Shown here: positions 46,595 through 47,124 of the stretch, in pieces | Numbering within the stretch: position 1 is the stretch's first letter | How the letters are laid out: every line of letters begins with the position of its first letter | Origin: Leptolyngbya ohadii IS1 | GTDB taxonomy: Bacteria; Cyanobacteriota; Cyanobacteriia; Elainellales; Elainellaceae | Direction: 5' to 3' | NCBI RefSeq assembly: GCF_002215035.1 | Contig: NZ_NKFP01000006.1 | Span: 1,810,530-1,874,529 of the forward strand | Length of the DNA: 64,000 nucleotides | The notes under the pieces: model-generated | The model's input: only the letters and a program-made list of their open reading frames with translations | Told to the model about the DNA's origin: nothing | The model's database searches: none | Translations under genes and position numbers: made by a program

Positions 46595-46672
46595 GGGGGT
46601 GGAAGTAGGGGGTAGGGAATAGGGAGTAGGAAGGCGGGGGAGTAGGGGGTAGAGAGTGGGGAGTAAGTTGGG
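46595..46672. repeat. Purine-rich short tandem repeats (GGGAGTA-type heptads)
   Basis: Imperfect heptad units such as GTAGGGG, GGGAGTA and TAGGGAA run for about 78 bases. This is the type of short tandem repetitive sequence known in filamentous cyanobacteria. Related tracts lie at 31281-31498 and inside the receiver-coding part of the kinase gene. Confidence 0.75.
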
Positions 46673-46745
46673 GCGATCGCTTTGCTTGCATTCCGTATTT
46701 ATCTCTACCTTGTTCTAGTTCTTCTTCTTGTTCCAATGCTTTTTG

Positions 46746-46929
46746 GGCGTTGCTGAATTAAGGGATGAATGGTGCAAATCGAAGTCCTGCACGCCCCCTA
46801 AATCCCCCAAGTTTGGGGGACTTTGAAATCGGCAGAATTGCCTGCCGCTATGGAAATGCTGGCATTTGTTTGGTTTTCCCCAGAATTGGGGGGTTAGGGG
46901 GGCGATTCATACGCCTATTCAGCAACGCC
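46746..46929. mobile_element. 184-bp MITE with target duplication
   Basis: Perfect 13-base terminal inverted repeats GGCGTTGCTGAAT (46746-46758) and its complement (46917-46929) are flanked by an exact 8-base direct repeat GCTTTTTG (46738-46745 and 46930-46937). The interior is an imperfect inverted repeat: CCCCCTAAATCCCCC on the left, and GGGGGTTAGGGGGG on the right. No coding frame for a transposase. All signs of a non-autonomous insertion; the helper IS family cannot be named with certainty. Confidence 0.9.
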
Positions 46930-47124
46930 GCTTTTTGTTCTAATGCTTTGCGTTGAGATGCACGATAGAAGGCTCTGTCTCCCCCATACCTCCTGCTGCA
47001 AGTGGGAAAAATTCATACATTACATCCATACATCACAAAATTCCTCTCTCACCCAGCAATAGCGACAGGCGGGAGAGGGATTCAGGGTGAGGACGGCTTG
47101 GGACTATTTCCCTGGTATAACGCC

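Follow-up and report, generated by a model that had tools for sequence, protein, structure and literature searches.

The usual explanation of a MITE is that it is a shortened copy of a single parent transposon. Among the MITEs described from cyanobacteria, Nezha is cited in PMC10969869, Anabaena sp. 90 has 147 MITEs that were reported without a matching IS (PMC3542288), and a Microcystis MITE of 187 bp with imperfect ends of 9 nt has been assigned to ISL3 (PMC11448079). Here we describe an element found in a stretch of 64,000 nt (the window) from Leptolyngbya ohadii IS1 (GCF_002215035.1, contig NZ_NKFP01000006.1, positions 1,810,530–1,874,529; a genome of 7.9 Mb in 8 contigs, referred to as G000). 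On comparative sequence grounds, this is very probably a MITE mobilised by IS1, whose core is common to MITEs belonging to three unrelated transposase families (table 1).

Table 1. Features of the MITE and its target site, in window coordinates.
Feature	Position	Strand	Evidence
Complete MITE, 184 bp, type A (IS1-type ends)	46746–46929	.	TIRs, sisters, duplications
Target duplication, left copy, 8 bp, GCTTTTTG	46738–46745	+	
Target duplication, right copy, 8 bp, GCTTTTTG	46930–46937	+	
Left TIR, 13 bp perfect (GGCGTTGCTGAAT), 25 bp at 80%, subterminal ATGAAT block	46746–46770	+	matches IS1-family ends
Right TIR	46905–46929	-	matches IS1-family ends
Left linker, ends TCCTGCA; same linker beside the core in IS5-type MITEs	46771–46791	+	
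Shared GC-rich two-hairpin core (CGCCCCCTAAAT ... TAGGGGGGCG)	46792–46904	+	
Core hairpin 1, AAATCCCCCAA-GT-TTGGGGGACTT	46800–46823	+	
Core hairpin 2, CCCC-AGAATT-GGGGGG	46878–46893	+	

The first-pass annotation of this DNA had proposed a complete MITE with perfect terminal inverted repeats (TIRs), a target duplication and mirrored C-rich blocks, and its coordinates proved exact. The 13 bp repeat GGCGTTGCTGAAT at 46746–46758 has its exact inverse at 46917–46929, GCTTTTTG stands on both sides, and the inverted match extends beyond 13 bp, at 80% over 25 bp. The mirrored blocks are likewise present: a second inverted match of 27 bp at 81% (46792–46818/46878–46904) forms the C-rich/G-rich interior. 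Folding z-scores against shuffles are −8.0 and −7.7 for the strands. The ORF listing has no reading frame of 80 aa or longer in the element and no transposase, no Rfam family reaches its gathering score there, and a search for carriage by phages returned no match. Being short, with paired TIRs and without a transposase, the element is a MITE by definition. What had escaped the first-pass annotation is that the mirrored blocks are a widespread cyanobacterial repeat, common to IS5-type and IS4-type MITEs.

The flanks have features of their own. Joining them on the minus strand (window 46745–46930) restores a short reading frame that contains a charged repeat (QRKALEQKALEQEEELEQGRDKYG), and the insertion may have broken a small coiled-coil gene or gene remnant. 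Just upstream of the MITE (window 46601–46665) lies a degenerate G-rich repeat (GGGAGTAGGGGGTAGGG...), reminiscent of the short heptamer repeats that occur in tandem in cyanobacteria; runs resembling it also adjoin two copies of the core elsewhere (L024 and L210).

Eight copies of the element, including that of the window, are present in the genome at 97–100% identity, and one other copy is identical to it. Each of the eight has its own exact 8 bp duplication, all different in sequence and for the most part AT-rich (GCTTTTTG, AAAACTTC, AAAAATCT, CTTTTTTG, GGATTTTC, CAAAATAT, GTAAATCG and GGATTTGC). Together with the folding scores, these copies and their duplications place the observation far outside chance. 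About half a dozen older relatives (146–209 bp, about 70–87% identity) occur in the same genome. Empty sites were sought by comparing the joined flanks of all eight copies with 36 genomes. The flank of sister L006 is duplicated in the same genome (L134), where 220 bp at 95% identity are element-free and hold a single CAAAATAT, which shows the insertion event. An uninterrupted flank of sister L008 was found in genome G006 (L135), a less clean case with a 1-base gap within the duplicated word. No empty site of the window copy was found in the relatives among these 36 genomes, because its own flanks are too poorly conserved there. The empty-site comparison proposed at first pass thus succeeded for two sisters and failed for the window copy, while the absence of any other copy, which was to have counted against a MITE, is contradicted by seven near-identical sisters. 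The multiple copies, the exact duplications and the empty sites, the last taken from L006 and L008, are those of a MITE and support the recent insertion of a non-autonomous element, as originally suggested.

Three variant arrangements of the IS1-type ends were observed in the same genome. Sister L004 carries an extra 15 bp left end (GGCGTTGCTGATTTG) within its target duplication (L004 1486–1500; G000:C1:871324–871338), making a doubled terminus. A 43 bp unit at G000:C1:1418158–1418200 consists of two IS1-type ends facing each other with no core between them. Finally, a solo IS1-type end lies at C6:1466907, between genes judged by eye to be TnsB-like and TnsC-like (L046 600–2406, G000:C6). The region is possibly a decayed Tn7-like transposon; the position of the end between the two genes led us to reject it as part of such a transposon, and it is probably a truncated MITE end.

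The family's genomes were searched for a helper with PF03400, followed by inspection of the element ends. Related genomes contain IS1-family elements of approximately 754 bp whose ends match those of the MITE (GGCGTTGC...ATGA); typically the left end reads GGCGTTGCATAAT...ATGA and the right end GGCGTTGCTGAAT...ATGA, and perfect 8 bp duplications flank three of them (L114, from the same genus, L120 and L121). IS1 joins its InsA and InsB frames by frameshifting, and the two were joined by hand to make a query protein. This protein matches PF03400 (E = 1.1e-27) and the NCBIfam IS1 model NF033558 (E = 1.5e-79), with a weak score of 22 bits against the ISL3 model (cut-off 180). At L075, a degraded IS1 reading frame leads directly into GGCGTTGCTGAATTAAGGGATGAA, an end identical over its 24 bases to the left end of the MITE. 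The MITE ends are identical to the IS1 right end in up to 23 of 26 bases, and both contain TGAAT, as does the IS right end, the left end of the IS having ATAAT instead. The target duplication is 8 bp long in the MITE and in the matching IS1 elements alike.

L. ohadii IS1 itself has five IS1 hits, whose ends, where readable, are of another (GGTAGTG) type and whose transposases share at most 37% protein identity with that of the matching-end IS1. A cognate IS1 was not found in this genome by PF03400, by translated search or by end pairs, none of which (matches with up to 2 mismatches) lie 0.6–3 kb apart. The cognate helper is therefore absent here, and its identity is taken from relatives. The genome search for the ends suggested at first pass accordingly yielded the seven sister MITEs, at 97–100% identity, but no full-length IS. 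By end match and duplication length we class the window MITE as IS1-family-derived, with its cognate IS absent from the same genome, and its copies appear to have been made by a helper that the genome no longer has.

A GG start and an 8 bp duplication occur also in ISL3 and IS6, and a likeness to ISL3 had been suggested by the first-pass annotation. A helper from that family, or another unrelated transposase also making 8 bp duplications, would fit both features and the absence of a cognate IS1 from this genome, and finds a parallel in the 187 bp Microcystis MITE assigned to ISL3 (PMC11448079). However, the full-length elements that were found with these ends encode IS1-family transposases and have the same 8 bp duplications, so that ISL3 is not supported as the helper and an origin of this kind is very unlikely.

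The interior of the element also occurs apart from its ends. Over 20 additional loci in the genome, all without IS1-type ends, match element positions 40–163. The core string TAAATCCCCCA-N4-TGGGGGACTTTGA, allowing one mismatch, is present in 71 of 242 genomes of the class, in none of which the reversed pattern occurs, and the core is also found on plasmids of Synechocystis PCC 6803, Pseudanabaena and Gloeocapsa. The paired ends read in 136 sampled copies of the core fall into three classes: A (IS1 type), B (AGAGGATGTYTGARAAGT) and C (CTACSGTGTACACACAAGT). Each has its own target duplication. For type A this is 8 bp (at most one mismatch in 8 of 12, versus 0 of 132 swapped pairs), for type B 3 bp of the form TNA (exact in 10 of 13, versus 40 of 156) and for type C about 10 bp (at most one mismatch in 7 of 22, versus 0 of 484). 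Searches with B ends led to a full-length IS5-family element, L349 (892 bp, TTA duplication), and searches with C ends to two of the IS4 family, L347 (1478 bp, GACCTAGAGG duplication) and L348. In the laboratory model strain Synechocystis PCC 6803, plasmid pSYSM carries a 112 bp core element with IS5-type (B) ends and TTA flanks (L206 1400–1600). Judged by these ends and their full-length counterparts, the same core moves with three sets of ends, those of the unrelated transposase families IS1, IS5 and IS4.

Low-complexity C/G runs converge easily, and C-rich/G-rich hairpins could conceivably have arisen independently in the three MITE families. This is extremely unlikely given that the 24 specified core bases include the non-palindromic TAAAT and ACTTTGA, that the reversed pattern is missing from all 242 genomes, that the core-adjoining linkers (CCTGCATYC and CCGAACC) are common to the end types, and that whole-core identity reaches 0.91 across end types. 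Between different genomes, core identity is 0.731 for copies with the same ends versus 0.721 for copies with different ends, and thus does not track end type; for copies with different ends in the same genome the mean is 0.783, a comparison of just 12 pairs that offers no more than a hint that each host exchanged ends independently. Covariation in the hairpin loop is weak (108 standard pairs versus 88.6 expected).

Another possibility is that insertions favour the core as a target, or that it functions as a DNA or RNA element such as a two-way transcription terminator, and that its three sets of ends came from separate nested insertions and not as parts of mobile units. Recognised ends are indeed lacking from 67 of the 136 sampled core copies, and C-type MITEs lie nested within, or adjoining, units with B-type ends at L223, L224 and L226. 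Against this, end-to-core spacing is constant or nearly so within each type, whole units are mostly 142–210 bp and the duplications lie outside the ends; the ends and core therefore moved together. Nor is there an Rfam match at gathering score, and we regard this explanation as unlikely. The core copies without recognised ends may be decayed, or may have ends of types not yet recognised. A shared core with changing ends is the reading we prefer, with the reservation that the constant junction spacing suggests a rare origin for each combination of end and core.

Other arrangements of the core were noted in passing. C-type MITEs (L192, L243, L248 and similar) are often inserted in palindromes of the form CCCCTT...AAGGGG, a hint that structure or sequence guides the choice of target. 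Pseudanabaena plasmid ABRG53a (L204 1490–1750) has two near-identical tandem copies of the core and one on the opposite strand, with none of the three end types.

The combination of an IS1-type end with the core was traced by an exact scan of genome contigs, which gave at least 110 stretches; among the matches listed all are cyanobacterial, from genera including Moorena, Okeania, Calothrix, Phormidesmis, Oculatella, Stenomitos, Drouetiella and Pegethrix. The 69 such elements with a right end among the matches listed are usually 147–149 bp long, and have an exact 8 bp duplication in 40 cases and one with at most one mismatch in 51. Swapped flank pairs gave 35 of 4692, and neighbouring lengths almost nil. 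The 184 bp form of the window is a longer-spacer subfamily. On contigs of Okeania and Moorena, B-type copies with the core were seen near A-type copies (L375 and L428).

We propose that an IS1-family transposase would act in trans on the element, recognising both ends (GGCGTTGCTGAAT with the subterminal ATGAAT block) and joining it, by cuts staggered by 8 bases, to an AT-rich target, and that repair of the gaps would leave the 8 bp duplication. Movement by this IS1 transposase is deduced from the match of ends, and the cognate IS1 would once have been present in this genome and then been lost. An origin by internal deletion of IS1 does not seem to fit the element: each of its ends has more in common with the right than with the left end of the IS, and a separate GC-rich two-hairpin core makes up the interior. 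As that core also occurs in IS5-type and IS4-type MITEs, the family most likely arose by acquisition or exchange of ends: either the core gained IS1-type ends, or ends were swapped between MITEs that shared it. From the present-day mosaics we infer that the copies of the core share an ancestor and that their ends have been exchanged. It is probable, with less assurance than for the identity of the window element, that the core has been fitted with IS1, IS5 and IS4 ends and spread by each, so behaving as a modular, mobile passenger that switches transposase by switching ends.

Should end exchange prove real, a passenger without coding capacity could survive the loss of any single transposase, which would help to explain the persistence of MITEs in helper-less genomes such as that of L. 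ohadii IS1. The B-type copy on pSYSM in Synechocystis PCC 6803 makes this idea testable. MITEs and IS1-family ends are known kinds, while the core shared across three families is provisionally new: the literature that could be searched, with incomplete coverage, yielded no relevant paper for the end and core strings and no report of a core common to MITEs of three transposase families, and the published cyanobacterial MITEs were compared by their descriptions rather than their sequences and may overlap the present core. Like those MITEs (Nezha and those of Anabaena sp. 90 and Microcystis), the window element is short, non-coding and present in many copies, with strong stem-loop folding. It resembles the IS1 family (PF03400, NF033558) in its GGCGTTGC...ATGA ends and 8 bp duplications, and differs in having no transposase, an unrelated interior and two ends that both resemble the right end of the IS. 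With the IS5-type and IS4-type MITEs the likeness is reversed: the two-hairpin core and linkers are the same, whereas the ends are AGAGGATGTYTGARAAGT or CTACSGTGTACACACAAGT, the duplications 3 bp (TNA) or about 10 bp, and the apparent helpers IS5 (L349) or IS4 (L347 and L348). The interior is thus not tied to the ends, the same core being found with target repeats of 8 bp, 3 bp or about 10 bp according to end type.
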